A DNA stretch of 42,320 nt from a virus, in the IMG/VR virus record IMGVR_UViG_3300022198_004130, positions 1 through 42,320 of that record; one strand, 5' to 3'. The position numbers were made by a program, and so were the translations under genes. A model generated the notes under the pieces. It was not told where the DNA came from. It saw only the letters and a program-made list of their open reading frames with translations, and ran no database searches. Shown here piece after piece: positions 7,729-26,621 of the stretch (position 1 is its first letter; every line of letters starts with the position of its first letter).

Positions 7729-7737
7729 GGAACACTA
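7729..7737 (+). promoter_or_regulatory. Candidate late promoter, GGAACACTA
   Basis: A match to GGNANNCTA, found upstream of twelve late transcription units in this window. It lies 30 bases before the ATG at 7768, in a 46-base gap. No -35-like box is seen upstream. Confidence 0.55.
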
Positions 7738-7767
7738 GCGCATTGTTAGCTCGGCTTTTGAACTACA

Positions 7768-8211
7768 ATGGCTGCCTTTAATAAATTTCACAGCTTTGTG
7801 GAGGACCTAGCTCATAAGAAGCACAATCTGTCGAGCGATGTTCTGAAAATATATCTTACGAATACCGCTCCTAATGCGAGCACCCATACTGCGTATGATG
7901 GCGTTACTGGAACTACTGGCCCCGCCGAGATTGCTGCTGGTAATGGTTATACGTTGACCGGTGCAACTGCTGCTTTTACTTCCAGCGCACAAACTAGCGG
8001 AACTTATAAATTAACCTTACAAGATCCACCGACCTGGACGGCGACCGGAGGTACGATTGGCCCTCTGAGGTATGCTGTTTTATATAATTCCACAAGTACT
8101 GGCAAGGAATTAATTGGCTGGTGGGATTATGGTGCTTCTGTGACGCTGCAAGCTACAGAGACGGTAGTTGTTGACCTTGATCAGACCAACGGTGTTCTGA
8201 CAATTGCTTAA
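7768..8211 (+). CDS. Small virion structural protein
   Basis: This 147-aa protein starts AAFNKFHSFVEDLAHKKHNL, followed by Thr/Gly/Ala-rich beta sequence. Proteins opening with an 'F..F.EDLA...HNL..D.LK..L' pattern recur in structural regions of tailed phages, but I cannot assign a precise role. It is the first gene after a late-promoter motif and is followed two bases later by the 224-aa gene, so the two are probably co-transcribed. Confidence 0.6.
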   Translation: MAAFNKFHSFVEDLAHKKHNLSSDVLKIYLTNTAPNASTHTAYDGVTGTTGPAEIAAGNGYTLTGATAAFTSSAQTSGTYKLTLQDPPTWTATGGTIGPLRYAVLYNSTSTGKELIGWWDYGASVTLQATETVVVDLDQTNGVLTIA

Positions 8212-8213
8212 TT

Positions 8214-8888
8214 ATGGCGTTAACAATTTCCTTTAGTCCCAAAGAGCTTGAGCGTGTTGCTTTATCTGCATATGCAGGGAAGCGCCTTCGGGTATTCCTC
8301 GCTACGCTTGGAACCGAAAGTTACACTAGCTCTACTCCTACGGCAACTTGGCAAACATTAGCCATTACAGGCAATGGTTACGCTGACTATAAAGAGATTA
8401 TCGATATTGGCGCGTATGATACAACCGACACTCGCTATGAACTAGGTGGCATCGACACGACCGGCGGATTTATTGATGCCGAATTCTCTTCGACCCCGGC
8501 AGGTGTAGGGTTCACTTACAATACAGTAGTGGTCGCCGTTCAACAAGAGAGTTCTTCTAATACTATTACATATACGGAGATCTCTTCTGATGTTGCTACC
8601 GTTACAACAGCATCCGCCCATGGCTTAATTGCCGGTGACGAAGTCGTGATCTCTGGTGCTACGAATACTGTGTATGATGGCGTCTATACTGTCTTAGATG
8701 CGCCTACTACTACGAGTTTTACTTTTACCAAAGTCAATGCTGATATTGGTTCTGCTGTCAGTGTTGGTACAGTTAAAACTTATGCCGATACTACTTACCC
8801 ACATTCTGTTTTAACTGAATCTCCTACGATTACAATTGCGCCAGGTCAAGTAATGACATACAGGATTCAGTTAATCGTAGATGACTAA
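8214..8888 (+). CDS. Virion structural protein with an inserted beta repeat
   Basis: This 224-aa protein starts two bases after the preceding stop. About residues 115-185 contain a module of the form 'ATVTTASAHGLIAGDEVVIS ... YDGVYTVLDAPTTTSFTFT'. This is a common beta-rich insert in phage tail and fibre proteins. The flanking parts (ALTISFSPKELERVALSAYA at the start, APGQVMTYRIQLIVDD at the end) seem to form one domain split by the insert. A virion role is inferred from context. Confidence 0.6.
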   Translation: MALTISFSPKELERVALSAYAGKRLRVFLATLGTESYTSSTPTATWQTLAITGNGYADYKEIIDIGAYDTTDTRYELGGIDTTGGFIDAEFSSTPAGVGFTYNTVVVAVQQESSSNTITYTEISSDVATVTTASAHGLIAGDEVVISGATNTVYDGVYTVLDAPTTTSFTFTKVNADIGSAVSVGTVKTYADTTYPHSVLTESPTITIAPGQVMTYRIQLIVDD

Positions 8889-8897
8889 GTTGCATTT

Positions 8898-11192
8898 ATG
8901 ACAACAAAAATAACTGTCAAGATCGAAGGAACTGATAAATTACTGGATACTGCGAAATCGCTACAGGCCGAGACTAGAGCGGAATATGCAGAAAAGAAAA
9001 ACGATAAGAAAGTAGCAAAAGAGGCTGCTGAAGAATTAGAGCTGCAAGAAACGGCAACAAAAGAAGATAATCAGAAAGGGGCTGTCAGAGATCCGGAGGA
9101 GGGCAAGAAAAGGCCTGTCGGTCCAAAATCAAAAGGGTGTGGGCATTGGATATTTACTGACCATACTTTCCGTTCCCTATGTCCGAGCCAAGACACTGCT
9201 AACACTCAGACCTATAGAGACAATATAGATTATGATATGAGAAGTAGCGACCTTGATAGGTTCCAGATCAGCGTAGGAAGCGGAAATGGTACATCTTGGG
9301 CTACGCATATTATCGAGGGCGGCGGAAGTAAGCCAGCTTTTTGCTCAGGAGTCCCCAGCGGGGTTACAAGTTTTGTCGGCTATTTGCATTATATACAAGT
9401 TTACGAGGGTTCTTTTGGTACAGTTTATAGCATCCCGGATGACGCTGTAGTCGTTCCCTATGATCCAGCGGTCTATTTGAAGAATCCTACGCCTGGTCTT
9501 TGTCCTGATAATTTTTGTTGGCCTTTGTATTTCCCGGACGAATTAAGCTCCGGTTCTGGTCGGACCAGAAAGATGGTTCCTATCGGCGTCCTTGACACGT
9601 TGAGCAATGGCACTGACCTTGGAGAAGGAAATCACTTCTACGTAGGAATGCCTGTAAACAACAAGACTTCTATAATTGCAGGCAAGTCGACCCTGCATTA
9701 TACAGTTTATACAACACAAAGGCTTGGCTGCCCTAGCCCATATGAACTAGTCCTGGATCCAGAAGACATAAATAAATATAATGTTATTTCGAAAGTTTAT
9801 TACAAGTATCCAGGCGGACCAGAAACGGGATGGCAGCCAATCACTGGATATTACTGGATAATGGATCCAGGTGATTCGACAAAAATATTAACAAAAGCGG
9901 AACTTGCAGCTTTGGTCCCATACTCTAGCACTTGGGTGAGTCGTGGATCTGAGATGGTTTCTGAGAAATGGGCTTTTGTTGTAAATCATAAAAAAGCTAG
10001 GGAAATAGCGGTCCCTGATAAACTGGGGGAGCTTATTGACAAAAGGGCACCGGACGCTGCTCCATATACGTATTTCCCATGGTTTACTTGGGAATATCCG
10101 ATGCACAGCTATTACGATGACGTGCTTACGGAAGATGATTTTGTTTTGGGTTACCAAAACTTTGTGTACCAGCCGGACGTTCACTGGTGGGCGAATCCGG
10201 ATGCACAATGCCCTGGATGGGGCAAGAATTTATTTGCTATATTTGAGACAGACAAAGATAATATGCCTTATGATTTCTTTAGTGTTTTTGTCAATAAGGA
10301 TTATGACATATTCCCAATTCATTACCTTCAAGGCTTAAACCCAGGAGCCTATGACTACATAGACAAGGGGATGAACGATTTAAAGATGTACAACCATCTA
10401 GGGAGGGGAAGTTGGGCGGCTGATAATAATGATTCATGGGATGTCGGTCCTATTACTTCTAACTATGGACAAATTAGATTTATGGCGCCAAACAGTGAGA
10501 CTGGCTCCTGGTTTAGATCTATATCGGATATTAATTCAAATCCCAATATATCTTTGACATATCGGGTTGCAAAATATCTGTTCTCTTGGTTCTGGTTAAC
10601 TGATCAGGAACAAGAAGATTACATTGAAAACTATTTGCAGTACATCTTTGGGCGGCGATATTATCATTCCCAGAACCCGTCTCTTATTGAGTCTGAGTAC
10701 GATTCCGGATTTTATGAAACCGAAATCTCCGCCGTTAGGGAAGTGCTGCGGAATACGCCCAAAAATAACAGAGAATTCAAATTCATAGAGTACAAAAAGC
10801 CAGTAGATAATGAATATGAAGATTTGCTTGTCGATGGCGTCAAGTGGGTATCGAGCGGTTTCACTGGATCCTGGACTCCTTACAATATACCTGAGTTTAA
10901 CTATGACAATGATCCCTTTTATACTGATCCATATCTAAGTCAATCAAAAGCACAATTGTTCAGACCGTACAAATTAAAAACAAAACTATCGAATAATCGT
11001 CTTTGGCCACCGAGCTTGATTGCTGGAAATTCCGAGCCAATCGATCCAAAAAAAAATAGCGAAGCAAAATTCAAACATCCGCTTTACCTTGGATTAGCTC
11101 AGATGCATTACATAGCAAATACTGCTTGGGATGGCAACTATACAAAGCAATTACTAGAGCTTGGCGTCCCTCCCGCCGATCTAAAGCCATGA
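8898..11192 (+). CDS. Large virion protein of unknown family
   Basis: This 764-aa protein has a highly charged N-terminal ~70 residues (Lys/Glu-rich, helical). The rest is very rich in Tyr, Trp, Asp, Asn, Pro and Gly. A Cys/Trp/His-containing segment (KGCGHWIFTDHTFRSLCP) lies near residue 80. I recognise no catalytic motif. The location between tail genes and the scaffold, and the aromatic Gly/Asn-rich composition, fit a tail spike or receptor-binding protein, but this is inference. The 3' end overlaps the next small gene by 4 bases. Confidence 0.55.
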   Translation: MTTKITVKIEGTDKLLDTAKSLQAETRAEYAEKKNDKKVAKEAAEELELQETATKEDNQKGAVRDPEEGKKRPVGPKSKGCGHWIFTDHTFRSLCPSQDTANTQTYRDNIDYDMRSSDLDRFQISVGSGNGTSWATHIIEGGGSKPAFCSGVPSGVTSFVGYLHYIQVYEGSFGTVYSIPDDAVVVPYDPAVYLKNPTPGLCPDNFCWPLYFPDELSSGSGRTRKMVPIGVLDTLSNGTDLGEGNHFYVGMPVNNKTSIIAGKSTLHYTVYTTQRLGCPSPYELVLDPEDINKYNVISKVYYKYPGGPETGWQPITGYYWIMDPGDSTKILTKAELAALVPYSSTWVSRGSEMVSEKWAFVVNHKKAREIAVPDKLGELIDKRAPDAAPYTYFPWFTWEYPMHSYYDDVLTEDDFVLGYQNFVYQPDVHWWANPDAQCPGWGKNLFAIFETDKDNMPYDFFSVFVNKDYDIFPIHYLQGLNPGAYDYIDKGMNDLKMYNHLGRGSWAADNNDSWDVGPITSNYGQIRFMAPNSETGSWFRSISDINSNPNISLTYRVAKYLFSWFWLTDQEQEDYIENYLQYIFGRRYYHSQNPSLIESEYDSGFYETEISAVREVLRNTPKNNREFKFIEYKKPVDNEYEDLLVDGVKWVSSGFTGSWTPYNIPEFNYDNDPFYTDPYLSQSKAQLFRPYKLKTKLSNNRLWPPSLIAGNSEPIDPKKNSEAKFKHPLYLGLAQMHYIANTAWDGNYTKQLLELGVPPADLKP

Positions 11193-11317
11193 GCAATGAC
11201 TCGTATCTTCAAGAGAAGCTAAGACTGGTGCAGTTAATTTCTCGGATGCAAGCAAAGAAGAAAACAAAACAGCAGCAAATGCTCAAAAAAATTAAGGACC
11301 AATATAAGAAGTTATAG
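11189..11317 (+). CDS. 42-aa basic helical protein
   Basis: The ATG at 11189 overlaps the preceding TGA. The product is SNDSYLQEKLRLVQL followed by a Lys/Gln-rich amphipathic helix (KKKTKQQQMLKKIKDQYKKL). The stop is followed directly by a late-promoter motif. The compact overlap supports a real gene. The function is unknown. Confidence 0.5.
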   Translation: MSNDSYLQEKLRLVQLISRMQAKKKTKQQQMLKKIKDQYKKL

Positions 11318-11325
11318 GCATACTA
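11317..11325 (+). promoter_or_regulatory. Candidate late promoter, GGCATACTA
   Basis: A GGNANNCTA match whose first base is the last base of the preceding TAG stop. It lies 31 bases before the scaffold ATG at 11357. Confidence 0.55.
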
Positions 11326-11356
11326 ACGCGCAATTTAGGCGTGACGCCTGCTCCAA

Positions 11357-12094
11357 ATGCCCGAAGAAAATCAGCAAGCACTTGAGACGAGTGCATCTAC
11401 TGGTACCGAGAGTACTGCGCCCATTGAAGAAGATGGGAAGCGCTACACGGAAGAAGAAGTTACCAATTTGCTGAAGGCTCTAAAAGCCGAACGTGAATCC
11501 CGTAAGATCTACGAGAAAGAGGTAAAAGAGAAAGCTGCACAACTGGAGAAGTTTGCAGAGATCAATCCGGCTGAATATCGCAAACTACAGGAGGAGGCTG
11601 CTATTGCAGCACGAGAGAAGGCTGCCGCAGATGAGCGTACTGCTTTGCTCGAAGAAAAGTATGGAGCCCAAGCTGCAGAGGCAGTCAAGAAAGCTGATTC
11701 CGCACAGCGCGAACTGCTAGAGTTCCGCAAGCGGTATGCACTTGAGAAGGTATTCTTCTCTGCTGGCGGCAGAACCGATTCCGCTGATGGCGTATCGTTC
11801 TTTGATATGCTGTTTAATCAAATCGGAACCACGTTCCGTCTTGAGTCTGACGGCAATGTAACTGTAATTGATGCAAGTGGTGATCCTGTACTTGATAGCG
11901 ATTCTGGCAAGCGCATCAATCCTGAAGATTATTTGTCTACCCTGAAAACTCACCCAATTTATGGGACCTTCTTTAAGGGTAACAAGGGCTCTGGAGCAGG
12001 TATTGGCTATGGCGGCACCGACTCGAACGGTATGACTGCTGAAGACCTGAGCAATCTCAGCCGAGACGAAATGTTCTTGCGAGCATTCGGTTGA
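11357..12094 (+). CDS. Capsid scaffolding protein
   Basis: This 245-aa acidic protein lies directly upstream of the major capsid gene, the usual place for a scaffold. About residues 30-120 form a long charged coiled coil (EEVTNLLKALKAERESRKIY, then Glu/Ala/Lys-rich heptads). About residues 125-210 form a more globular part, and the end is NLSRDEMFLRAFG. Scaffolds guide procapsid assembly and leave before or during DNA packaging. No protease motif was seen. A strong terminator follows, so scaffold and capsid appear to be separate transcription units. Confidence 0.75.
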   Translation: MPEENQQALETSASTGTESTAPIEEDGKRYTEEEVTNLLKALKAERESRKIYEKEVKEKAAQLEKFAEINPAEYRKLQEEAAIAAREKAAADERTALLEEKYGAQAAEAVKKADSAQRELLEFRKRYALEKVFFSAGGRTDSADGVSFFDMLFNQIGTTFRLESDGNVTVIDASGDPVLDSDSGKRINPEDYLSTLKTHPIYGTFFKGNKGSGAGIGYGGTDSNGMTAEDLSNLSRDEMFLRAFG

Positions 12095-12102
12095 GTTGTT
12101 AC

Positions 12103-12124
12103 AACCGGCTTCGGCCGGTTTTTT
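12103..12124 (+). terminator. Rho-independent terminator after scaffold
   Basis: A 7-bp perfect stem (AACCGGC / GCCGGTT) closes a TTCG tetraloop and runs into six T. It separates scaffold from capsid transcription. Confidence 0.9.
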
Positions 12125-12144
12125 AATGTCAATTTTACAAGATT

Positions 12145-12153
12145 GGTATTCTA
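12145..12153 (+). promoter_or_regulatory. Candidate late promoter for capsid gene, GGTATTCTA
   Basis: A GGNANNCTA match lying between the scaffold terminator and the capsid start, with 122 bases to the ATG at 12276. This is the longest leader of any copy. If it is the promoter, the capsid mRNA has a 5' leader of roughly 110-120 nt. Confidence 0.6.
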
Positions 12154-12275
12154 AGGTGAAGTACCCAGCCCTGACCTGGTTGTGATGACCTAGCGGGGAG
12201 GGTCTAGCGCTAAATGAGCGCGATGCTCAATAGGCGATTTACCTTTCCTCATGTTCATCATTTTCTAGGAGAGAA
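12154..12275 (+). promoter_or_regulatory. Structured 5' leader of the capsid mRNA
   Basis: No coding potential is seen. It contains a 5-bp hairpin (GCGCT, loop AAATG, AGCGC) at 12207-12221, short repeated TAGCG/CTAGCGC words, and a good ribosome binding site AGGAGAG just before the ATG. A role in stabilising the abundant capsid mRNA or tuning its translation is an inference. Confidence 0.4.
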
Positions 12276-13178
12276 ATGGCTCTTACTCTTGCAGAGGCTA
12301 AAAAGCACGCCTCTAACCCCCAAGAACTGGCAATTGTGACCGAGCTTGCTGCCGGTCCTCTGCTGCAAAACCTGCCCTTCCGCGAAGTTCAAGGCAACGG
12401 CCTGTTCTGGAAGCGTGAGGAGTCCCTCGGCGACGTGGGCTTCCGTGCCTTCAACGATGGCTACACTGAGAGCTATGCAACCGTCAAGCAGCACAGCGAA
12501 GCGCTGAAGCTGTTCGGTGGTGACATCAAGGTGGACCGCGCCATCGTTGACCTGGAAGGTCCCGAGGCTCGCGCTTACCAGATCCAAGCCAAGACCCGCG
12601 CAATGCGTCTGGCTTTCGAGGCTCTGTTCGTCAACGGCGATTCCAACAGCGTTGGTGCTGAATTCGATGGCCTGGCTACCCGCCTGCCCGCCGCTGATTA
12701 TGCCACCAACTCCCAGGTGATCCGCAACGCTTCCAGCGCTGCTGCCCTGGATCTCGGTGCTCTGGATGAAGTTATTGATGCTGTGGATGCCCAAGGCGGT
12801 ACCAAGTACATCATCGCTTCCCGCTCTGCTCGTCGCGCTCTGACGAAGGCTGCTCGCAACAGCAGCCAGATCGACATCATGCGCGATGAGTTCGGCTACC
12901 AGCAGACCGTGTACGGCGGCCTGCCCGTGCTTGAGATTGATCGTGATCATCAGAACGTGGCAATTCTGGACAGCAACCCTGCTGATCAGTCCCTGTATGT
13001 GGTGGCTTTCGGCAACGATCTGCTGACCGGCCTGCAGAACGGTGGCCCTCAGGTGCGTGACCTGGGTGAAGCAACCGACGCTCCTGTCCTGGTGACCCGC
13101 GTTGAGTGGTACTGTGGCTTGGCTCTGATCAATGGCCGCGCTGCTGCTCGTCTGACCAACGTGAACGCTACTGCCTGA
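12276..13178 (+). CDS. Major capsid protein (HK97-fold type)
   Basis: This 300-aa protein forms the icosahedral shell. Its position directly after a scaffold, its size, and its motifs support this. The motifs include an N-terminal LTLAEAKKHASN helix, an E-loop-like NGLFWKREESLGDVGFRAFN segment near residues 45-65, YIIASRSARRALTKA near 165-180, and GLPVLEIDRD near 215. Codon use is strikingly biased (CTG, GGC, AAC, CGC, GCT/GCC) and differs from the AT-richer neighbouring tail genes, as expected for the most abundant virion protein. It has its own upstream late motif, a long leader, an AGGAGAG ribosome binding site and a strong terminator. No fused prohead protease is visible. Confidence 0.85.
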   Translation: MALTLAEAKKHASNPQELAIVTELAAGPLLQNLPFREVQGNGLFWKREESLGDVGFRAFNDGYTESYATVKQHSEALKLFGGDIKVDRAIVDLEGPEARAYQIQAKTRAMRLAFEALFVNGDSNSVGAEFDGLATRLPAADYATNSQVIRNASSAAALDLGALDEVIDAVDAQGGTKYIIASRSARRALTKAARNSSQIDIMRDEFGYQQTVYGGLPVLEIDRDHQNVAILDSNPADQSLYVVAFGNDLLTGLQNGGPQVRDLGEATDAPVLVTRVEWYCGLALINGRAAARLTNVNATA

Positions 13179-13200
13179 GCTTTAACTAGCTAAGATAAAG

Positions 13201-13224
13201 GGGTCCCGAAAGGGACCCTTTTTT
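13201..13224 (+). terminator. Rho-independent terminator after capsid gene
   Basis: A perfect 7-bp GGGTCCC / GGGACCC stem with a GAAA tetraloop, followed by six T. Flanking A/T bases can extend the stem. Confidence 0.95.
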
Positions 13225-13229
13225 CATAT

Positions 13230-13238
13230 GGAAAACTA
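13230..13238 (+). promoter_or_regulatory. Candidate late promoter, GGAAAACTA
   Basis: A GGNANNCTA match six bases after the capsid terminator T-run. It lies 19 bases before the GTG at 13258. The terminator-promoter juxtaposition supports a new transcription start here. Confidence 0.6.
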
Positions 13239-13257: not shown

Positions 13258-14460
13258 GTGATTTTTTCGTCGTCCGATATTGAACAGTTAATCGGCGGCG
13301 ATCCGATTATCCGCGCATTATGTAGCGTTGAGATAGTTGATGCAAAGCCTGCGTTGCGGGCGGGCGAGGGCGTTATTATTTATATCAAAAGATATCCAGA
13401 CTTGTCTGAGTTCGAGGCAAAGTGGGATATCTGGATCATTGATTATGACAACGAGCCCGTTGATGTTGTTATTCGGCAACTGCGAACTTTATTGCCGCAG
13501 TTTACAGTACTTGAAGAAGGCGCGATAATCAAGGCCAGTACGACCGAGTTAAGATCAGAACAGACCCAAGCTCAGGCCAAGCCAGAAGTTTTAATTGCGG
13601 AAGCTGATCCTTACGAGGAAAAATTCCAAGATCTGCTGCAGTCAGTAGAGGATCGAATGTTGCTGGTTGGCCCTGGCCGACCTGGAAAAGATGGTAAAGA
13701 TGGCAGGGACGGGAAAGACGGACGCGATGGACTGGACGGCAAAGATTTAGATGCGACTGATATCGAGATCGGTGATCTCAAAGATGTATTTGTTTCCGAC
13801 GCAGATCGCGGTCAGTATTTAATGTTTGATGGCGCCGGATGGGTGCCAAGGTTTGTTCCGCGAGTGTTTTCTGGCGGAGGCGGTGGGACGACGGAAGGAG
13901 GAGGTGGCGGCGGAGAATCCATGCCAGAACCTCCTTCTGACGGAAGGTTCTATCTGCGGCAGGTCACTGACGGTACCGGTCAGTGGGTTGATCTCGTAAC
14001 TGCCCTGAATTCCCTGCTGCTTGATGGCGGCGATTTTGATGGCAGAAGAATTGCAGCCTTTGGTGGTAACTACACCATATCCGGCTCCGCTTCTGCTAGA
14101 TACATAATCAAGACGTTACATGCAGAAAATGGAACGTGGATTACCAGCGGTCAATTCGCATCGTTTATCTTTAACAGGGTTTTAAGGGCTGACGGGACGA
14201 CAAACTCCATCGATGGATCGGACGCTGGTATCAAAATTGGTCGGATTGTAGATGCTGAAGCTGGCACTTTTAATATCACTGGCGTAACAGGAGACGATGT
14301 TATTGGCTACCGTATTCTTGGTAGCGCTGGATCGATTTCTTTGGCGGGCACAAACGCTGACATCAGGTACAACGAGCCAGAGTTTGCATTCTTCTCTAGC
14401 TGGTCCGCTCAGAACTATGGCTACGAGACAGAAATCTATCCTGATGGATGGGCTGAGTAG
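13258..14460 (+). CDS. Collagen-like fibre protein
   Basis: I choose the GTG at 13258 because AAGGA at 13247-13251 sits 6 bases upstream. The in-frame TTG at 13252 would abut that site. The product is 400 aa. About residues 138-160 form a short collagen-like Gly-X-Y run (GRPGKDGKDGRDGKDGRDG). A segment LKDVFVSDADRGQYLMFDG follows, then two poly-Gly hinges near residues 200-220, and a C-terminal beta-rich domain. Collagen-like triplets are common trimerising segments in phage fibres. Receptor binding is inferred for the C-terminus. Confidence 0.7.
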   Translation: MIFSSSDIEQLIGGDPIIRALCSVEIVDAKPALRAGEGVIIYIKRYPDLSEFEAKWDIWIIDYDNEPVDVVIRQLRTLLPQFTVLEEGAIIKASTTELRSEQTQAQAKPEVLIAEADPYEEKFQDLLQSVEDRMLLVGPGRPGKDGKDGRDGKDGRDGLDGKDLDATDIEIGDLKDVFVSDADRGQYLMFDGAGWVPRFVPRVFSGGGGGTTEGGGGGGESMPEPPSDGRFYLRQVTDGTGQWVDLVTALNSLLLDGGDFDGRRIAAFGGNYTISGSASARYIIKTLHAENGTWITSGQFASFIFNRVLRADGTTNSIDGSDAGIKIGRIVDAEAGTFNITGVTGDDVIGYRILGSAGSISLAGTNADIRYNEPEFAFFSSWSAQNYGYETEIYPDGWAE

Positions 14461-14468
14461 GTACCCTA
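14460..14468 (+). promoter_or_regulatory. Candidate late promoter, GGTACCCTA
   Basis: A GGNANNCTA match starting on the last base of the previous stop codon. It is 19 bases before the ATG at 14488, the same spacing as several other copies. Confidence 0.6.
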
Positions 14469-14487: not shown

Positions 14488-14841
14488 ATGGCAGCTCCCA
14501 ATTTGTTATCGCCAACTACGGTAACGGGGAAAACGGCTATCGCCGCATTGACCACTTCTTTAGTTGCGATTATTGATAACCCTGCTGATAGCGGCAAGGT
14601 AATCAAGGTCAACACAATTAGGGCAGCTAATATTACCAGCACTGCTGTTACCATCAGCGTTTGCCATCATCGAACTCAGCACAACTATATGCTAAAAGAT
14701 GGGACGCTTGAAGGTGCAAAAACTTTAATCGTCACCGACAAGAATGAATATGTGTACCTAGAAGAAGGTGACCAGTTGATGGCATCATCTTCTACTGGCT
14801 CTAGCGTTCATTTAACTATCAACTACGAGGAGATCGTCTGA
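14488..14841 (+). CDS. Small beta-rich virion protein
   Basis: This 117-aa protein has GAGG just upstream of the ATG. The sequence alternates hydrophobic and Thr/Ser residues. Landmarks are KVIKVNTIRAANIT, VTISVCHHRTQHNYML, YVYLEEGDQLMAS and HLTINYEEI. This pattern, 'VN.IR..N.T...VTVS..', occurs in small phage structural beta-sandwich proteins linked to fibres or head decoration. The stop overlaps the next start by one base. The exact role is unknown. Confidence 0.6.
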   Translation: MAAPNLLSPTTVTGKTAIAALTTSLVAIIDNPADSGKVIKVNTIRAANITSTAVTISVCHHRTQHNYMLKDGTLEGAKTLIVTDKNEYVYLEEGDQLMASSSTGSSVHLTINYEEIV

Positions 14842-16739: not shown

Positions 16740-16748
16740 GGAATTCTA
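16740..16748 (+). promoter_or_regulatory. Candidate late promoter, GGAATTCTA
   Basis: A GGNANNCTA match in a 56-base gap, 34 bases before the ATG at 16783. Confidence 0.5.
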
Positions 16749-16782: not shown

Positions 16783-18993
16783 ATGCCAATCCCAAGTCCG
16801 CGTATCAAATTTCAGGTTGCGCGAGGCGATTATTCTAACCTAATTGCGGGTCTTGGCGAATTCCAGGAAGGCGAACTTTGTTATGCCAGAGACCAAGATT
16901 CTCTGTATATCAAGGAAGGAAACGAGCTGATCAAATTAAGCTCTGGGCTTGACGCTCAGCTAGCCAATTACATCAGAGAAATTGCGGGAATAAACTATAC
17001 GAACGAGCCTATGGGGCATGCCGACAAGAGTGAAAGCTCTATCGGTTTTGATGCTGGCACTCGTGTATTTTCAATCTCCCCTGTTGGTTCTAGCTTTACT
17101 GTATGGTGTGCTGGGATCAAGATCGTCTTCACAGAGACGGAATCGATTGAACTATCTGACGCCACCGGCCTGTACTATATATACTTCGATCAGAATGGAG
17201 CGCTTGGCTATCAGTTAAACTATTTCGACTGGGATTCACAAGCTCCCACTGCTTATGTTTACTGGAATGCCGACGAACAAGAGGGTGTTTACTTTGGGGA
17301 TGAAAGACACGGTATAACTCTTGACTGGCAGACGCATGAGTACTTGCATCGCACAAGAGGCGCGGTACTGGCGAACGGATTTGACATCAGTGGTTATACT
17401 GTTTCCGGTGATGGTTCTCTGGATAGCCATGCCAAATTCAGCCTAGCCAATGGCACGTTTTTTGATGAAGATTTACAGGTTGATATTGTACATTCTGCTG
17501 CGCCCGCTGCGAATACATGGGAGCAGTATATAACGGATCCTTGCAGAGCTGCAGTTCTTTACAGATCAGGGTCTAGTTACAAAATCGACACGGCGACTGA
17601 CTACCCTGTCAAGCTTGGTACTGTTTATCCTTATTATAATACTGTAACAGGAGGATTATGGTCTACTGTTGAAGCTGGTGCCAACAAGTATATAGTTGCC
17701 TTCGTTATTGGAACGAATAATTTAAACAATCCTGTCCTCAGTATCATGGGGCAGGCGCAATACAATAACATTGGCGACGCTCAAGCTGTATCATTTGCCA
17801 GTCTAAATTTAGATGGGTTCCCTTCTAGGGAATTTCGCACACTGTATCGACTGATTTTCCAAGTTGGCAATTACGCGAATACACCAAATGCCAGACTCAG
17901 GGAAGTACTGGATCTCAGGTATTTTTCTCTTGGTACTCAGCCTCCTGTTGAATTAACCTCAGAGCAAATCCAAGATTACGCAGCGCAATTATTCGCAAAT
18001 GGCACGCACTCTGGTCTGAATTTTGTTTATGACGATAACAATGATCGCATCAATAGCTCTGCTGATGTCAGGTCGGTCAATGCGCAAACCGGGGACGTGT
18101 CCCTGGAAATGCTTGATGCGACAGATGCAGCGCTAAGTTATACCGATACATCTCTCAGTAGTTGGACAGCAACAGGGACAAGCAATCCTCCTGCATTTGG
18201 CGAAGTTTCCCAGGACGGAAATACCTTATACTTTGACACTGATCCGTTTAATCATGCAGACACCTTAACATCAGGCGATCTGGTGTTACTAAACAGTGAT
18301 CTGTTTAGTGTCTCTAGCGCTACTTACGTCCCAGGAGAATCGTTCTGGACACTGGTTCTAACCGGTGGGACTGTTCCGACTTATGCGGCCGGTCAGACTG
18401 TGCAACTGTATTCTAGAACAGACAACCCGATTGCTAATCTAGATGTATGGACGTATAATTTAACTAGGCAAAAATGGGAGCCAAAATCGGCTCTTCGAGG
18501 CACTGATATCCCCGATCTTGTCTATCCGCTATTCACGCATGGACATCACACTGGTATTACATTTGAATTAGATGCTGCGAACGAGCATATTGATGCGACT
18601 GTAACAGCGACTGGCTCAGGTGCTTCCAGGGGTTCCGTAAGTGTCAGCTATGTGCTCAATGCTGGCGCTACTGATATCTTTAATATTACTCTACCTAGGA
18701 GTTGTCTTATTTACAAGGTCAGTATTACTAAGCCGGTCTGGTTTAGGTTGTATAATTCGTCTGCTGCAAGATCCAACGATACTTTCCGGGATAGGACGAC
18801 TGATCCCGCTAGTTCGTCTGGGATTATCTGTGAAATCATCAGTACTGGAAATCAGGCTTTTACCTTGACACCTATTCCAAGCGCCATGAATGCGGAATCT
18901 CCGGCTAGCAATACTTATGCTGTCAGAGTGACCAATGATGATGGCACGGCTAACGTTGAGATTGCGATTGAGTACTTAAGTTTGGAACAATAA
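16783..18993 (+). CDS. Large tail fibre protein with Mtd_N-like N-terminus
   Basis: This 736-aa protein starts with a ~45-residue module (RIKFQVARGDYSNL, EFQEGELCYARDQDSLYI). It matches the 'R.K..RG....L..GEL.Y..D...LY' pattern of the major-tropism-determinant N-terminal type, which anchors fibres. Related modules begin the genes at 19686 and 21333. The middle is beta-rich. VNAQTGDVSLEMLDATDAAL near residue 430 resembles a fibre-shaft hinge, and a similar LDATDAA-type phrase occurs in other fibres. The C-terminus (SVSYVLNAGATDIFNITLP onward) looks like a beta-sandwich receptor-binding tip. Confidence 0.7.
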   Translation: MPIPSPRIKFQVARGDYSNLIAGLGEFQEGELCYARDQDSLYIKEGNELIKLSSGLDAQLANYIREIAGINYTNEPMGHADKSESSIGFDAGTRVFSISPVGSSFTVWCAGIKIVFTETESIELSDATGLYYIYFDQNGALGYQLNYFDWDSQAPTAYVYWNADEQEGVYFGDERHGITLDWQTHEYLHRTRGAVLANGFDISGYTVSGDGSLDSHAKFSLANGTFFDEDLQVDIVHSAAPAANTWEQYITDPCRAAVLYRSGSSYKIDTATDYPVKLGTVYPYYNTVTGGLWSTVEAGANKYIVAFVIGTNNLNNPVLSIMGQAQYNNIGDAQAVSFASLNLDGFPSREFRTLYRLIFQVGNYANTPNARLREVLDLRYFSLGTQPPVELTSEQIQDYAAQLFANGTHSGLNFVYDDNNDRINSSADVRSVNAQTGDVSLEMLDATDAALSYTDTSLSSWTATGTSNPPAFGEVSQDGNTLYFDTDPFNHADTLTSGDLVLLNSDLFSVSSATYVPGESFWTLVLTGGTVPTYAAGQTVQLYSRTDNPIANLDVWTYNLTRQKWEPKSALRGTDIPDLVYPLFTHGHHTGITFELDAANEHIDATVTATGSGASRGSVSVSYVLNAGATDIFNITLPRSCLIYKVSITKPVWFRLYNSSAARSNDTFRDRTTDPASSSGIICEIISTGNQAFTLTPIPSAMNAESPASNTYAVRVTNDDGTANVEIAIEYLSLEQ

Positions 18994-19006: not shown

Positions 19007-19015
19007 GGTAACCTA
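19007..19015 (+). promoter_or_regulatory. Candidate late promoter, GGTAACCTA
   Basis: A GGNANNCTA match, extended here to GGTAACCTAAATAG, which resembles T4-type late boxes at its 3' half. It is 19 bases before the GTG at 19035, with AGGAG between. Confidence 0.6.
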
Positions 19016-19034: not shown

Positions 19035-19358
19035 GTGCGGCCTGCTACTTACGATATTGTAATCCGTCAGAGAGCCACATTCAGGCAGCAGTTCAACCTA
19101 CCAATCAACATGATTGGCCATGACGTGGCCGCGCAAGTCTGGAGCGAAAAACGTAGATCTAAGATCATAGAATTTGATGTTGTATGGTTAGATCGTGCCG
19201 CTGGAGAATTTGAATTAGTTGCAAGCCATCTACAAACAGAGAAGATGGCGAAAGACGCCGAATGGGATTTGATGATCATCTTTGGTGGCGGAGATCGCCA
19301 ATACTGGATCGAAGGGAAAGCTATATTTGATCCTGGATACACTGACCCGGATGATTAA
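19035..19358 (+). CDS. Small virion protein, baseplate-upper-protein-like
   Basis: This 107-aa protein starts with GTG behind AGGAG (9-base spacing). The pattern 'YDIVIRQRATFRQQFNLP...DVAAQVWSEKRRSKIIEFDV...F.L' resembles the short beta domain found at the start of BppU-like and other fibre-attachment proteins in phages. It is followed after two bases by a small collagen-like protein, suggesting both belong to a fibre base. The assignment is tentative. Confidence 0.5.
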   Translation: MRPATYDIVIRQRATFRQQFNLPINMIGHDVAAQVWSEKRRSKIIEFDVVWLDRAAGEFELVASHLQTEKMAKDAEWDLMIIFGGGDRQYWIEGKAIFDPGYTDPDD

Positions 19359-19650: not shown

Positions 19651-19659
19651 GGAAAACTA
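19651..19659 (+). promoter_or_regulatory. Candidate late promoter, GGAAAACTA
   Basis: A GGNANNCTA match identical to the copy at 13230. It is 26 bases before the ATG at 19686. Confidence 0.5.
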
Positions 19660-19685: not shown

Positions 19686-21269
19686 ATGGCGAATACTATT
19701 CGCATAAAGCGTAGATCTTCTGGAGCTGCTGGAGCGCCTGCAGTTCTGGAGAATGCAGAGTTAGCGTTTAATGAGGTAGATGACGTACTTTATTATGGAG
19801 AAGGTACGGGCGGTGCTGGTGGCACTGCTACTTCTGTCTTAGCAATTGCTGGCCCTGGCGCATATACTACGCTTACAACTGCTCAGACGATTAGCGGAAA
19901 TAAGACTTTTAGTGGTACTGTTGACCTTGGTAGTGCTGCTGTTGCTGCAACCAGGACTCTGGGTGATAGCTCGACTTCGGTTGCTACGACTGCTTTCGTG
20001 GCAAATGCTGTAGCAAACTTTGCTAGCGAGGCGACTACCCTTAGCACCAGTGGTGACAGCGGTACTGGTACCGTTAACCTGCTGAATCAGACTTTATCGA
20101 TTCTTGGAGGGACTGGGCTGACTGCTACGGCTAGCGCACAATCTGTTACCGTTAATCTTGACGATACTACTGTTACCGCTGGCTCTTACGGTTCGGCCAG
20201 TTCGGCTTCTTCTTTTACTGTTGATGCCCAGGGCAGGCTAACTGCTGCCTCTAGCGTATCGATCAACATTACCGCTAGCCAGGTTAACAACTTCGACACC
20301 CAGGTTCGGACGAATCGTCTGGACCAAATGGCAGCTCCAACTGCCAGCGTTAGCATGAACAACCAACTGCTGACGGCGGTTGCTTCTCCTGTTAACGATA
20401 CCGATGCGGCCAACAAAGGCTATGTCGATAACGCCATTGCTGGCCTGACCTGGAAGGACTCTGCTCACTTGCTGGCAGATAGCAACGTTGCCTTAACCGG
20501 CACCGATGGCACCCTCGTTATTGATGGTCATACTGCACTTGATCTGAACGATGTTGGGTACCGCTTGCTGCTCAAGGGGCAGACTACCGCTTCTCAGAAT
20601 GGTATTTATGAATACACGGTAAGCGGTGGCAATTACACCCTCGTTCGATCTGATGACGCTGACACCTATCAAGAGCTGATTGGGGCAGCTATCTTTATTA
20701 AAGAAGGTACGACTTATGGTACGACTGTCTGGATTCAGTCCAGTCATTACCTGACCAGTTTCGATGGTCAAGTATGGACACAGTTCTCCGGTGTTAGCAC
20801 CTATCTTTCAGGTGACGGCCTTGATCTGAACGGGAATATTTTCTCGGTTGATCTGAAAGTTGACGGCGGTCTGGTTATTGAAGGTGGCGAGGTCGCTGTC
20901 GACCTTAGCGCCTCCAGTATCACTGGGACGCTTGGCATTGGCGATGGTGGCACTGGTGCTACTACTGCTGGTGCAGCCAGAACTAGTCTCGGTGTTGCCA
21001 TTGGTTCTGACGTTCAAGCCTGGGATCCTGATCTTGATACCCTGTCGACTGTTCAAGCAGGCGTAGCAACCGCTATTGCTGCACTGACCAGTACTGAAGT
21101 TGCTGTCATTGACGGCAGCACTGCTGCTACTGCGACGACTTTAACGCTGACCGACAAAATGATCATCAACGACGCAGGTGCAATGGTGCAGGTCGCACTC
21201 AGCGATCTGATCACCTTCCTGGAAGACGAAACCGTCTCTGGGTTCGATCTGGACGGCGGAGTCTTCTGA
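19686..21269 (+). CDS. Major tail fibre protein, Mtd_N-like plus repeat shaft
   Basis: This 527-aa protein opens with an Mtd_N-like module (ANTIRIKRRSSGAAGAPAVL, AELAFNEVDDVLYYGEGTG). It continues with TTAQTISGNKTFSGTVDLGS and ATRTLGDSSTSVATTAFVAN, a fibre-shaft arrangement common in phages. A segment near residues 205-350 (MAAPTASVSMNNQLLTAV, NDTDAANKGYVDNAI) also follows known fibre phrases. The last part is Gly/Thr/Ala-rich. Codon use from about 20200 on shifts toward the CTG/GGC/AAC style of the capsid gene, unlike the first third. This may indicate a mosaic join or selection for expression. Confidence 0.75.
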   Translation: MANTIRIKRRSSGAAGAPAVLENAELAFNEVDDVLYYGEGTGGAGGTATSVLAIAGPGAYTTLTTAQTISGNKTFSGTVDLGSAAVAATRTLGDSSTSVATTAFVANAVANFASEATTLSTSGDSGTGTVNLLNQTLSILGGTGLTATASAQSVTVNLDDTTVTAGSYGSASSASSFTVDAQGRLTAASSVSINITASQVNNFDTQVRTNRLDQMAAPTASVSMNNQLLTAVASPVNDTDAANKGYVDNAIAGLTWKDSAHLLADSNVALTGTDGTLVIDGHTALDLNDVGYRLLLKGQTTASQNGIYEYTVSGGNYTLVRSDDADTYQELIGAAIFIKEGTTYGTTVWIQSSHYLTSFDGQVWTQFSGVSTYLSGDGLDLNGNIFSVDLKVDGGLVIEGGEVAVDLSASSITGTLGIGDGGTGATTAGAARTSLGVAIGSDVQAWDPDLDTLSTVQAGVATAIAALTSTEVAVIDGSTAATATTLTLTDKMIINDAGAMVQVALSDLITFLEDETVSGFDLDGGVF

Positions 21270-21278
21270 ACCGTTCAG

Positions 21279-21296: not shown

Positions 21297-21332
21297 ATCA
21301 ACCCTGCTTCATAGCAACTCAAGGGGAGCCAG

Positions 21333-22232: not shown

Positions 22233-22234
22233 TC

Positions 22235-22861
22235 ATGCCTTTTTTCGCCCTTAGAGACCCACGGATTACCAACAGTCTCGACCCGGATTTCGACAAGGTG
22301 GACCGTTGGGGTTATCCCTGGAACCTGTGGCCGCACCTCGGATTTACACACGACAACTGGCCGTCAGATCAATTCTTGGCAGACAATCACGCATTGCCTT
22401 TATACAAAACAACGGCGTTCGACGAGACACTGTTCAGGCTGAGCAGGCTTGATCACCCAGTCATAGATACCGACTCAGACGGCAGAGAATACGCAAGGCT
22501 GTATGAAGTTGTCGCTCTTACCGCAGAGGAGTTAGACCAGCGCAAGAAATCAAAAGCAATGGCGTTCGATTACGCGGGAGCCTGGTCGTATCTCAGGCGA
22601 ACCACTGCCTATTCAAGGCTAAAGGAGGCAGCCAAGGTTGATCTAGCGCTTAACACAGAACTTACAGAGCTGATCGCTGTCTTCGGACAGGCTATCGCAG
22701 GCCACGTAGATTACGAGGCCGTACAGAGTTGCATCAGCTCACTGCTCCTTGCAGACTATGTTTCGCAGGATGACTACAGGGAGATCGTCGGCGTACTGTC
22801 AAGCTTTGGCCTTGACAGCTTCTATCAATTACCCACACCAAGCCCCACGGAGGAAAACTAA
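22235..22861 (+). CDS. Unknown protein in fibre cluster, possibly assembly factor
   Basis: This 208-aa protein starts two bases after the previous stop. The N-terminal third is Trp/Pro/Asp-rich (DKVDRWGYPWNLWPHLGFTH). The rest is helical (AEELDQRKKSKAMAFDYAGA, then three or four amphipathic helices). The helical half and the location between two fibre genes suggest a fibre-assembly chaperone, but I cannot name a family. Its end overlaps the next ATG by one base. Confidence 0.5.
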   Translation: MPFFALRDPRITNSLDPDFDKVDRWGYPWNLWPHLGFTHDNWPSDQFLADNHALPLYKTTAFDETLFRLSRLDHPVIDTDSDGREYARLYEVVALTAEELDQRKKSKAMAFDYAGAWSYLRRTTAYSRLKEAAKVDLALNTELTELIAVFGQAIAGHVDYEAVQSCISSLLLADYVSQDDYREIVGVLSSFGLDSFYQLPTPSPTEEN

Positions 22862-24164: not shown

Positions 24165-24250
24165 GCAGCGGCACGCCAAGCGTTAGCTCAGTAGCAAGCA
24201 CTCTCAAGTCTCGCGGCTGGATCATCGTCCTCAACGGCGTGACGCAGTAA
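24161..24250 (+). CDS. Possible 29-aa leftover or small ORF
   Basis: A TTG at 24161 overlaps the preceding TGA, with AGG five bases upstream. The frame encodes a protein-like SSGTPSVSSVASTLKSRGWI followed by IVLNGVTQ before TAA. It may be a remnant of a fibre C-terminus or a chance reading frame. Evidence is weak. Confidence 0.25.
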   Translation: MSSGTPSVSSVASTLKSRGWIIVLNGVTQ

Positions 24251-24424
24251 CGGCAGTTAGTGGCTGATAGGGGGAAAGCTGGGGTTATGAGACCTTTGCC
24301 TCTGAGATGAGCGCCTCTCAGCCGCCGGACACACCGGGGCCTCACCCCAGGTTCAGCCACATAAATTCGACAAGGAATTAGCCAGGAAGTATGTCGACGA
24401 ATTCCTTTTCCCTGTTCAGCAATA
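24251..24424 (+). other. Noncoding stretch with hairpins before the 116-aa virion gene
   Basis: I see no convincing gene here. It has a 4-bp GGGG/CCCC hairpin near 24337. It also has an 8-bp perfect stem AAGGAATT (24372-24379) / AATTCCTT (24400-24407) with a 20-base loop, followed by a short T-run, which could be a terminator of the fibre operon. Overlapping AATTCGAC / GTCGACGAATT words allow an alternative pairing. Confidence 0.35.
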
Positions 24425-24433
24425 GGTAATCTA
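24425..24433 (+). promoter_or_regulatory. Candidate late promoter, GGTAATCTA
   Basis: A GGNANNCTA match, 61 bases before the ATG at 24495. After the capsid copy it has the second-longest leader of the set. Confidence 0.6.
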
Positions 24434-24494
24434 AGACAGATCGCGCCAATGCTCTCCGGGGCGGGTCTGTTAACACAATCGGAGTTTACTTAAA

Positions 24495-24845
24495 ATGGCT
24501 CAACGTTCTACTGGGGTGTTCCCCCGCGAGAAGTTTGATCTCGATGCCGCTTTCGAGGTCACCGCTACTCCCGCTGCTGCTCCTATCCCCCTGACCAGCA
24601 TCGGCACCATCCGCATCGTCGTGCTTGACGCTGCTGGCATCGACGACGCTGGCACGAACAAGATCACCGTTACCGTTGGCGGCAAGGCTACCGTGTTCAA
24701 CGCTTCTGACCTGGACAAGAACGGCGTGGGCATCGCTCACATCCGTGGCACCCTGTGCGATGCCAACAACAACATGAGCTACACCCTAGGTGGCACCGGC
24801 ACCGTGGGCGCTGTGTACCTGGATGTGGTTGACAACGTCGGTTGA
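24495..24845 (+). CDS. Abundant small virion protein, likely capsid decoration or tail tube
   Basis: This 116-aa protein begins AQRSTGVFPREKFDLDAAFE. It continues in beta-strand-like sequence (GTIRIVVLDAAGIDDAG, NKITVTVGGKATVFNASDLD, GTVGAVYLDVVDNVG). Its codon use (CTG, GGC, AAC, ATC, ACC) is like that of the capsid gene and unlike its neighbours. Like the capsid gene it has its own late motif, a leader with a GGAG site, and a strong terminator. This predicts very high late expression. A decoration protein or the tail-tube subunit are both possible; no other tube candidate was seen. Homology was not recognised. Confidence 0.6.
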   Translation: MAQRSTGVFPREKFDLDAAFEVTATPAAAPIPLTSIGTIRIVVLDAAGIDDAGTNKITVTVGGKATVFNASDLDKNGVGIAHIRGTLCDANNNMSYTLGGTGTVGAVYLDVVDNVG

Positions 24846-24868
24846 GCCATAGGCTATCGGCAAACTAT

Positions 24869-24890
24869 GGGGCGGTAACGCCCCTTTTTT
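24869..24890 (+). terminator. Rho-independent terminator after the 116-aa virion gene
   Basis: A perfect 6-bp GGGGCG / CGCCCC stem with a GTAA tetraloop and six T. Confidence 0.95.
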
Positions 24891-24893
24891 ATT

Positions 24894-25184
24894 ATGTACC
24901 TTCGTAATCGTCCCGTCTATTATACTAACGGTGTAGATACGATCGCCGTTAATTATTCTGCTCATGCCAGAGATCTTGAGCAGACTGGCTGGACGCGTGT
25001 CGAAGTAGAAGAGATCAAGGTTGAGGCACAACCCGAGCCTGTCTCTGAGGCTGTTCCCAGCGACACCGACCTTACATCTCTCACCAAGAATGAACTGATC
25101 GCTTATGCTGAGGCAGTTGGGGCTGAAGTGAAGCCTGGTTCAACCAAAACTGATATCATTGCTGCAATCGAGGCTAATGATTGA
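24894..25184 (+). CDS. Small protein with C-terminal HeH/SAP-like domain
   Basis: This 96-aa protein starts at an ATG only four bases after the terminator T-run, without a visible ribosome binding site. It may rely on read-through. The N-terminal ~45 residues are beta-like (YLRNRPVYYTNGVDTIAVNY). An acidic linker follows, then about residues 62-94 read LTSLTKNELIAYAEAVGAEV ... GSTKTDIIAAIEA. This matches the helix-extended-helix (HeH/SAP/Rho-N-like) pattern often found in small phage head-region proteins. Function is unknown, possibly DNA- or head-associated. Confidence 0.6.
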   Translation: MYLRNRPVYYTNGVDTIAVNYSAHARDLEQTGWTRVEVEEIKVEAQPEPVSEAVPSDTDLTSLTKNELIAYAEAVGAEVKPGSTKTDIIAAIEAND

Positions 25185-25362
25185 GTTTGAGTACGTCAAA
25201 GGTCCGCGAATCTTGGAAGATGGGACGAATCTTGACTCTGACGTAATCGCATACGAGCCAACAATTCAGAGACGCAGTATCGCTGACCCCGTCTCTGATG
25301 GCTCTCTTGGGGTTCCTGGGTATCAACCAGGACAAAAGAATCTGGACGGCTCAGACCTGTAA
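25177..25362 (+). CDS. Small hypothetical protein in head-region cluster
   Basis: I start it at the ATG at 25177, which overlaps the previous gene by 8 bases and has GAGG five bases upstream, giving 61 aa. The sequence (IEFEYVKGPRILEDGTNLDS, then AYEPTIQRRSIADPVSDG) is Asp/Gly/Pro-rich with no recognisable domain. Overlap with the HeH-domain gene indicates co-translation. Confidence 0.5.
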   Translation: MIEFEYVKGPRILEDGTNLDSDVIAYEPTIQRRSIADPVSDGSLGVPGYQPGQKNLDGSDL

Positions 25363-25365
25363 GAC

Positions 25366-25374
25366 GGTAACCTA
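25366..25374 (+). promoter_or_regulatory. Candidate late promoter, GGTAACCTA
   Basis: A GGNANNCTA match identical to the 19007 copy. It is 20 bases before the ATG at 25395, with AAGGAG between. Confidence 0.6.
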
Positions 25375-25394
25375 GTTAGTTACAAGGAGATGTC

Positions 25395-25490
25395 ATGGCA
25401 ATGCCACTTGCTATCGCTAAGCAACTCGGCAAGAAAGGCCCAGCCAAGAAAGGTGGCAAGGCTCCTGCTAAGGGTTCTGGTAAACGCTAA
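25395..25490 (+). CDS. 31-aa lysine-rich basic peptide
   Basis: The ATG has AAGGAG six bases upstream and a late motif before it. The product AMPLAIAKQLGKKGPAKKGG plus KAPAKGSGKR has ten Lys, with Pro/Ala/Gly spacing like histone-H1 tails. The TAA stop overlaps the next ATG by one base. Good initiation signals and the strong charge bias support a real gene. Binding of packaged DNA or a nucleic-acid role is an inference. Confidence 0.6.
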   Translation: MAMPLAIAKQLGKKGPAKKGGKAPAKGSGKR

Positions 25491-25786
25491 TGGCCGCGAA
25501 GAAGCGCAGTACCGCAGATTTCTACGCCAAGAATCCTGAGGCGTATAAAAAGAAGCTTGCGTATGACAAGAAGCGTAACGCCAGACCTGATCGTAAGGAC
25601 TACAGAGCCGAGCTTGCTAGGGAGCGCCGTGCCAGAGGGATCATGGGCAAGGGTGGTCCCGACGTGAGCCATACCAGCGACGGTAAATTCAAGCTGGAAA
25701 ATCCCAAGACCAATCGTGCTCGCAATGGCCATGGCAACAATGGCCGACTTGCTCCTGGCAAGGGAACAAAAAGATCGAAAAAGTAA
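25490..25786 (+). CDS. Lys/Arg-rich small protein of cyanophage-like type
   Basis: This 98-aa protein is very basic. The order of motifs is STADFYAKNPEAYKKKLAYD, KKRNARPDRKDYRAELARER, GGPDVSHTSDGKF and NRARNGHGNNGRLAPGKGTK. A '..NP.A..KK..YD...N..P....YR..L...R..' plus 'D.SHT..G' layout is, to my recollection, common in small proteins of marine and freshwater cyanophages and some giant phages. Its biochemical role is not known to me. It is translated directly after the Lys-rich peptide. Confidence 0.6.
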   Translation: MAAKKRSTADFYAKNPEAYKKKLAYDKKRNARPDRKDYRAELARERRARGIMGKGGPDVSHTSDGKFKLENPKTNRARNGHGNNGRLAPGKGTKRSKK

Positions 25787-25816
25787 TGAAGCGATTACAG
25801 ACAGCTAATCGCTTCA
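25787..25816 (+). terminator. Strong hairpin at operon end
   Basis: A perfect 11-bp stem (TGAAGCGATTA / TAATCGCTTCA) with an 8-base loop begins right after the stop codon. Only a weak T-containing tail (TTGTCTG) follows. It may terminate transcription or protect the 3' end. Confidence 0.55.
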
Positions 25817-25827
25817 TTGTCTGACCA

Positions 25828-25836
25828 GGCAATCTA
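25828..25836 (+). promoter_or_regulatory. Candidate late promoter for lysis genes, GGCAATCTA
   Basis: A GGNANNCTA match, 19 bases before the ATG at 25856. It lies between the hairpin at 25787 and the holin-like gene. Confidence 0.6.
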
Positions 25837-25855
25837 ATATAGTTACAGGAATACC

Positions 25856-26044
25856 ATGACTGCTGTTATTGCCTATCTGGTAGCCCATGGTCCCGAGATT
25901 TTGGCGGCCTTAATTGCTGTTCATGCCGCAGCAGTTGCTATCGTCAACCTGACTCCTACCCCCAAGGACGACGCTGCAGTTGCCAAGTTTTACCGTGTCA
26001 TTGAGATCCTAGCAGGTATCGTTACAAAACTGTCAAAGGGCTGA
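25856..26044 (+). CDS. Holin-like small membrane protein
   Basis: This 62-aa protein has AGGA six bases before its ATG. About residues 3-31 are strongly hydrophobic (VIAYLVAHGPEILAALIAVH then AAAVAIVNL). A short polar tail with PTPKDDAAVAKFY and a second weakly hydrophobic helix (VIEILAGIVTKL) follow. Size, membrane segment and position before the endolysin suggest a holin. The last codons contain the heptamer AAAGGGC just before the stop, and the -1 frame is open beyond. Confidence 0.55.
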   Translation: MTAVIAYLVAHGPEILAALIAVHAAAVAIVNLTPTPKDDAAVAKFYRVIEILAGIVTKLSKG

Positions 26045-26109
26045 GTCGATCGGATACCCGTTGGCTGCTCAGGTTTTCAACCCGCAGTCAACGGGAAGAA
26101 GTTGAACGA

Positions 26110-26322
26110 TTGATCAACAGAGTTAAATTTTACCAGACTCTGAATAGCAAATTAACGCTAGAAATCAATCGAGTCAAAGCAGAAATGAAGGCAATGGAGA
26201 CAACTTCAAAGCCTGTTATTATCGAGCATCCGATCGACGACAGTCTGCAGACTGGTGATTCTAGATTGCTTGGTGGCGACATCAGCATACACGCCCCTTG
26301 GCGAACAGAATCGGAAGAATGA
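26110..26322 (+). CDS. Coiled-coil small protein, start uncertain
   Basis: The only usual start codon in this frame is a TTG at 26110, giving 70 aa. The frame is open upstream to about 26010. The N-terminal half is an amphipathic helix (INRVKFYQTLNSKLTLEINR, VKAEMKAME) and the rest is polar. It may be translated from the TTG (GGGAAGAAG lies upstream) or as a -1 frameshift extension of the holin-like gene. A lysis accessory role is inferred from position. Confidence 0.45.
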   Translation: MINRVKFYQTLNSKLTLEINRVKAEMKAMETTSKPVIIEHPIDDSLQTGDSRLLGGDISIHAPWRTESEE

Positions 26323-26342
26323 GATTAGGGTTGAATTTTTAG

Positions 26343-26612
26343 ATGGCACCTCAGGAACCTACCCCATATGGGGGTGACATCTACCATATATTGGGTAACC
26401 TCGAAGGCAAAATGGATGCTCTAATCGCCAGGACTGCAGAGTACAGGGCTGATCTGCAGACTGCATTTGAACGCATCTCAAAACTTGAGAACAAACAAGC
26501 CTGGATCATGGGCGCTGCTGTTGTCGTCAGCTTAGTGATGCCAACAATTGTTGGAGTTGCTTCTAAAAATTTTGATATTAAGATTGATCCTGTCATAGAG
26601 AATCAAAAATAA
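26343..26612 (+). CDS. Membrane-anchored lysis accessory protein
   Basis: This 89-aa protein has a helical region at about residues 15-52 (GNLEGKMDALIARTAEYRAD, LQTAFERISKLENKQAW). One membrane segment follows at about 53-74 (IMGAAVVVSLVMPTIVGVAS), then a short tail. This arrangement, a coiled coil followed by one C-terminal transmembrane helix, resembles XhlA-type holin accessory proteins. It sits between holin-like and endolysin genes. Confidence 0.55.
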   Translation: MAPQEPTPYGGDIYHILGNLEGKMDALIARTAEYRADLQTAFERISKLENKQAWIMGAAVVVSLVMPTIVGVASKNFDIKIDPVIENQK

Positions 26613-26621
26613 GGTACACTA
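26613..26621 (+). promoter_or_regulatory. Candidate late promoter for endolysin, GGTACACTA
   Basis: A GGNANNCTA match starting immediately after the previous TAA. It is 20 bases before the endolysin ATG at 26642. The hairpin-like AATCGCTTTTAATGCGAT-type inverted words nearby are weak. Confidence 0.55.

Follow-up and report, generated by a model that had tools for sequence, protein, structure and literature searches.

The window, by which we mean the whole stretch of DNA analysed here, is a virus record of 42,320 bases read on one strand, and its genes are of the siphovirus type. The left side carries the scaffold, major capsid, head decoration and endolysin genes, and the right side carries the genes for a helicase, an annealing protein, an exonuclease, ThyX, the terminase, two sigma factors (termed sigma A and sigma B below) and a primase. 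No match was found by a megablast search of the window against GenBank phages, and the nearest named phages are the Synechococcus phages S-CBS2, S-CRES1, S-CRES2 and S-CRES3 and the Prochlorococcus phage P-SS2. Among the tailed phages that infect marine Synechococcus and Prochlorococcus, the cyanosiphoviruses form one of three groups.

The twelve copies of GGNANNCTA listed in the initial annotation were all recovered exactly at the positions given there (Table 1), but the list lacked a further intergenic copy at 24859 and six sense-strand copies inside genes. When gene ends were refined, 13 of the 16 gaps in the virion/lysis block (1312 gap bases) were found to hold the motif, one copy each, and the six sense-strand copies inside the genes of this block were spread over 26.7 kb. 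The sense-strand density in the block was thus 9.9 per kb in the gaps against 0.22 per kb in the genes. Dinucleotide shuffles of the block gaps yielded a mean of 0.38 copies and a maximum of 4, and none of the 2000 shuffles reached 13. The motif had been claimed to be missing from the gaps of the replication region, and we indeed detected no copy in nine such gaps (852 bases). Likewise, six copies do lie 19-20 nt from a start codon, provided that the ATG at 13258 and the small open reading frame at 25395 are counted. The gene caller used reproduced 54 of the 68 annotated S-CBS2 starts that were checked. As the pattern had originally been picked by eye, we scored every one of the 143,360 patterns in which six bases are fixed over nine positions. 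GG.A..CTA ranked first in the window by itself, and likewise in ten of a further 18 genomes, and the motif is therefore not cherry-picked. We regard the intragenic copies, and the one at 22852 that abuts a start codon, as chance occurrences. The motif itself is real, intergenic and on the sense strand.

Table 1. Motif copies, sigma factor genes and terminator hairpins in the window (the base after each motif copy follows the hyphen)
Feature	Position	Strand	Context
Motif copy GGAACACTA-G	7729..7737	+	Before gene 7768-8211; 30 nt to start; kept in relative G001
Motif copy GGCATACTA-A	11317..11325	+	Before scaffold gene 11357-12094; 31 nt to start; kept in 11/13 orthologues
Motif copy GGTATTCTA-A	12145..12153	+	Before major capsid gene 12276-13178; 122 nt leader; 121-133 nt in 7 orthologues
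Motif copy GGAAAACTA-G	13230..13238	+	Before 13258-14460; kept in 11/11 orthologues
Motif copy GGTACCCTA-G	14460..14468	+	Before 14488-14841; 19 nt to start
Motif copy GGAATTCTA-G	16740..16748	+	Before 16783-18993; kept in 5/5 orthologues
Motif copy GGTAACCTA-A	19007..19015	+	Before 19035-19358; 19 nt to start
Motif copy GGAAAACTA-T	19651..19659	+	Before head decoration-like gene 19686-21269; 26 nt to start
Motif copy GGTAATCTA-A	24425..24433	+	Before 24495-24845; 61 nt to start; 55-70 nt in 7 orthologues
Additional motif copy GGCAAACTA-T	24859..24867	+	Before 24894-25184; copy also kept in G001
Motif copy GGTAACCTA-G	25366..25374	+	Before small ORF 25395-25487 and 25490-25786; 20 nt to ATG at 25395
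Motif copy GGCAATCTA-A	25828..25836	+	Before 25856-26044; kept in 5/5 orthologues
Motif copy GGTACACTA-C	26613..26621	+	Before endolysin gene 26642-27781; 20 nt to start; kept in 11/15 orthologues
Sigma factor B, SigF-like group 3, regions 2 and 3, no recognisable region 4	39696..40325	+	Proposed motif reader
Sigma factor A, RpoD/group 2-like, region 4-like end	32733..33644	+	Rival reader; poorly conserved between genomes
Terminator hairpin	12103..12120	+	Just 5' of the major capsid copy; transcription unit boundary
Terminator hairpin	13201..13218	.	Just 5' of the 13230 copy; assigned by the scan to the - strand; + side also T-rich

A further terminator hairpin, a strong one (24869-24884, GGGGCGGTAACGCCCC-TTTTTT), begins one base past the motif copy at 24859. 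Because this hairpin is directly 3' of it, the copy is perhaps silent, attenuated or not productive, and its role as a working promoter appears doubtful. The product of 25856-26044 is small, probably a membrane protein, and a candidate for the holin. The two small proteins encoded by 25395-25487 and 25490-25786, downstream of a motif copy, are very lysine-rich in a histone-tail-like manner, and relatives of the latter were present in 14 other genomes. The endolysin looks to be a two-domain protein, in which an N-terminal endolysin part is followed by a C-terminal part matching another family, phrog_3617.

The initial annotation made its reading depend on conservation in related phages. We compared the window with S-CBS2, S-CRES1, S-CRES3, P-SS2 and eight metagenomic contigs bearing a relative of sigma B, and then added six contigs with more distant sigma B sequences (14 metagenomic relatives in total). 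The motif was found in all four named phages and all 14 metagenomic relatives; sigma B partly guided the choice of the motif-bearing relatives, and P-SS2, S-CBS2 and the S-CRES phages were isolated independently. In the 19 genomes pooled, 266 copies were located upstream of genes against 20.9 expected. The corresponding figures were 4 and 3.9 in seven phages without sigma B, namely S-CBS1, S-CBS3, S-CBS4, KBS2A, P-SSP7 and two phages of bloom-forming cyanobacteria, one of which possesses only a distant sigma factor (28% identical). The preference of the motif for the sense strand and for gaps extended to a contig with a sigma B of 48% identity. In the first 13 genomes, 110 copies were found 18-23 nt before a start codon, while the one-base variants tested gave 0-15 copies and the reversed or complementary controls 1-4 in the same spacing test. 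Furthermore, the motif preceded 72 of the 105 orthologues of the genes that carry it in the window, against 19 of the 298 orthologues of the genes that do not. Long spacings were conserved in orthologues as well, as seen for the capsid gene (Table 1).

The genes served by the motif are largely those of the virion and of lysis, nearly all of which are preceded by a copy in this marine cyanophage and its relatives. In S-CBS2, S-CRES1, S-CRES3 and the window, it was found at 70 of the 99 unit heads in the virion/lysis class against 2 of the 24 in the replication class (p = 2e-8). The initial annotation assigned the copies to virion and lysis genes; in the relatives, the motif is additionally found in front of terS, portal, an hli gene (in S-CBS2) and the genes for ribonucleotide reductase or thioredoxin. 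Not every motif target is strictly a virion gene. The sites before ribonucleotide reductase or thioredoxin genes are at 63315 in S-CBS2, at 18511 in S-CRES3 and upstream of 6423 in P-SS2, and a late-type motif is unexpected for nucleotide metabolism. For P-SS2, of which the virion proteins have been identified by mass spectrometry (PMC2784084), the motif was located at 8 of the 20 structural unit heads against 9 of the 55 others, a borderline difference (p = 0.058).

Across 328 copies, the only strong positions were GG-A--CTA. Weaker preferences were seen for T two bases before the motif, for A, C or T (not G) at the third base and for A or C at the sixth, and the fifth base was A or T in two thirds. 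The next base was A or G in about 70% of the copies, in agreement with the original description. Purines were favoured 5 and 6 bases after CTA, and this peak persisted, though weaker, where the start codon is distant. The upstream logo was flat, bearing out the claim that the motif has no -35 partner: neither TTGACA nor TAGGC stood out upstream at any spacing, and no hidden -35 or -32 partner was detectable over the 328 copies. The purines 5-6 nt after CTA fit a transcription start site, and we infer that the purine at the sixth base is +1. On this numbering, the GG pair would occupy -14/-13, and the invariant A and T would fall at -11 and -7, the positions at which bases of the -10 element are flipped out by sigma-70 family proteins.

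Sigma B was detected in all of the motif-bearing relatives, with 44-90% identity to the homologue in the window. Its best-matching family was SigF (NF005644, 4e-23, profile positions 31-157 of 258, covering regions 2 and 3), albeit with a score that does not reach the curated family-wide cut-off. No Pfam region 4 was detected in sigma B, and the match to the SigF profile stops at residue 135. The last 50 residues are variable and are cut short in S-CBS2. The predicted fold had a mean pLDDT of 79, and a fold search with it retrieved sigma factors of no particular type, the domains not being reliably placed; the weak helices predicted at the end of the protein could be a decayed region 4 still touching the polymerase. 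One sigma B contig (L123, DGOV01000074.1) belongs to a bin labelled Proteobacteria, in which a similar capsid gene is also present; this contig is probably of a cyanophage and wrongly binned.

Altogether, we consider it quite probable that S-CBS2/P-SS2-type cyanosiphoviruses use GGNANNCTA(R) as their late promoter, a single -12/-10 box that is read by phage sigma B with the host RNA polymerase. Judged from sequence comparison, the motif is very likely a promoter and sigma B is likely its reader; the latter assignment is correlational because the motif and sigma B are inherited together in one phage group, and their co-occurrence is not independent evidence for the same reason. The ribonucleotide reductase, thioredoxin and hli targets and the borderline result for P-SS2 count against this explanation. 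In the proposed mechanism, sigma B would bind the host RNA polymerase and recognise the single box, and transcription would start ~6 nt beyond CTA, so that many genes would have leaders of ~14-17 nt. The -35/-32-reading domain of SigF would have been lost from sigma B, and the promoter would consequently have lost its upstream box. A SigF lacking this domain would be expected to recognise only the -12 element; the phage motif has the appearance of just that half of a SigF promoter, and the purine peak independently places it at that position.

The genes around sigma B bear on how late transcription may be sustained. In ~45 of 62 sigma B loci, a motif copy is located 2.1-2.7 kb upstream of sigma B, directly before terS. 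Among the named phages, the copies before the terS-terL-sigma B operon are at 54459 in S-CBS2 (L013), 10372 in S-CRES3 (L044) and 10092 in S-CRES1 (L046). As the operon carries the motif in most relatives, sigma B would switch on its own operon there, suggesting that late transcription amplifies itself. No copy was found at terS of the window or of its closest subgroup (e.g., L001, L002, L005-L007 and L054-L058), so self-amplification does not apply to this subgroup.

Another sigma factor could read the same late promoter, either sigma A or one of the host, perhaps with a phage activator. Sigma A is RpoD/group 2-like, bears regions 2 and 4, and is present in the named relatives, but its homologues are only 23-30% identical to that of the window in genomes sharing the unchanged motif, and this makes it the weaker candidate. 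A sigma factor with region 4 should also leave a -35 signal, yet none was seen; S-CBS1, S-CBS3 and KBS2A possess RpoD-like sigma factors (that of S-CBS1 shares 33% identity with sigma A in the aligned portion) but lack the motif, which resembles the -12 element of SigF promoters and not TATAAT. We thus regard a reader other than sigma B as unlikely. It is less probable still that the motif works in RNA, as a translation enhancer, a processing site or a leader element. About half of the copies do keep a constant distance of 19-23 nt to the start codon, but others are 55-133 nt upstream with the spacing conserved in orthologues, some come right after terminators, and the downstream purines remain in place, if less marked, when the start codon is far.

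The motif can hardly be the promoter of a single-subunit RNA polymerase like that of T7. It shares with the T7-family promoters a compact, conserved single element near the start site and the start codon, the CTA end and the occurrence on the sense strand only, but no gene for such a polymerase was found in these phages: PF00940 matched none of 11 genomes, four complete isolates included, while the same search found the polymerase of P-SSP7, and this candidate was rejected. Nor do we give real weight to the motif being the binding site of a phage transcription regulator that overlaps ordinary promoters. A short DNA word recurring at regulated genes would be expected of such a site, but the word is not a palindrome, shows a strong sense-strand bias and is not flanked by ordinary -35/-10 signals.

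The late promoter proposed here can be compared with known systems. T4 late promoters consist of one box, which is read by gp55, a sigma factor without the -35-reading domain (PMC2988020). The phage motif is similar in being one short box near -10 with no -35, in serving late genes and in its putative reader, a phage sigma factor without the -35-reading domain, but the box is GGNANNCTA in this phage group against TATAAATA in T4, and sigma B is SigF-like and keeps region 3. A search of T4 and S-PM2 with the sigma B profile gave no match. The T4 system also involves a co-activator, gp33, and the sliding clamp gp45. The T4-like clamp (PF02916) was not matched in six records, although the profile also missed that of S-PM2 and is therefore insensitive. 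The resemblance to a T4-type late promoter suggested in the initial annotation consequently stands for the mode of action and fails for descent, as neither the sequence nor the sigma factor is that of T4: one box and a SigF-derived sigma factor would amount to a T4-late-like mode with a different sigma factor.

In cyanobacteria, SigF requires TAGGC at -32 and GGTAA at -12 as revealed by scanning mutagenesis, and the SigF promoters of Synechocystis PCC 6803 include those of pilA1 and of sigF itself, which is autoregulated (PMC2758279). The phage motif has the GG-A core at -12 in a degenerate form (GGNAN versus GGTAA), and its proposed reader is a group 3 sigma factor of the SigF family; in most relatives, the terS-terL-sigma B operon may be autoregulated in the same way as sigF. 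The differences are that the phage motif lacks the TAGGC box at -32, adds CTA downstream of GGNANN and serves phage late genes, and that sigma B has no recognisable region 4.

The 'type III' sigma factor of P-SS2 (ORF003) is a homologue of sigma B, ~49% identical over the matched part. In 2009, the regulon of this group 3 sigma factor was left open, and only sigma-70 promoters, predicted by BPROM, were reported; the main text of that paper mentions neither the motif nor its targets (PMC2784084). We found no earlier description of the motif, nor of any late promoter of cyanosiphoviruses, in a literature search that did not cover the main S-CBS2 genome paper (Huang 2012).

The motif is probably the switch by which the shortened, cyanobacterial-type sigma factor of the virus turns on late genes. 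It gives the orphan group 3 sigma factor of P-SS2 a concrete candidate regulon and marks late transcription units in uncultured genomes, and the link between sigma B and the motif is directly testable with isolates already in culture. We lean, by a modest margin over even chances, towards a second, independently evolved one-box late system in phages, in which a captured host SigF, the regulator of a pilus regulon, lost its -32-reading domain and became a late sigma factor that, in most lineages, activates its own operon and the terminase genes. Sigma B would then join T4 gp55 as another example of a sigma factor that functions with no -35-reading domain.
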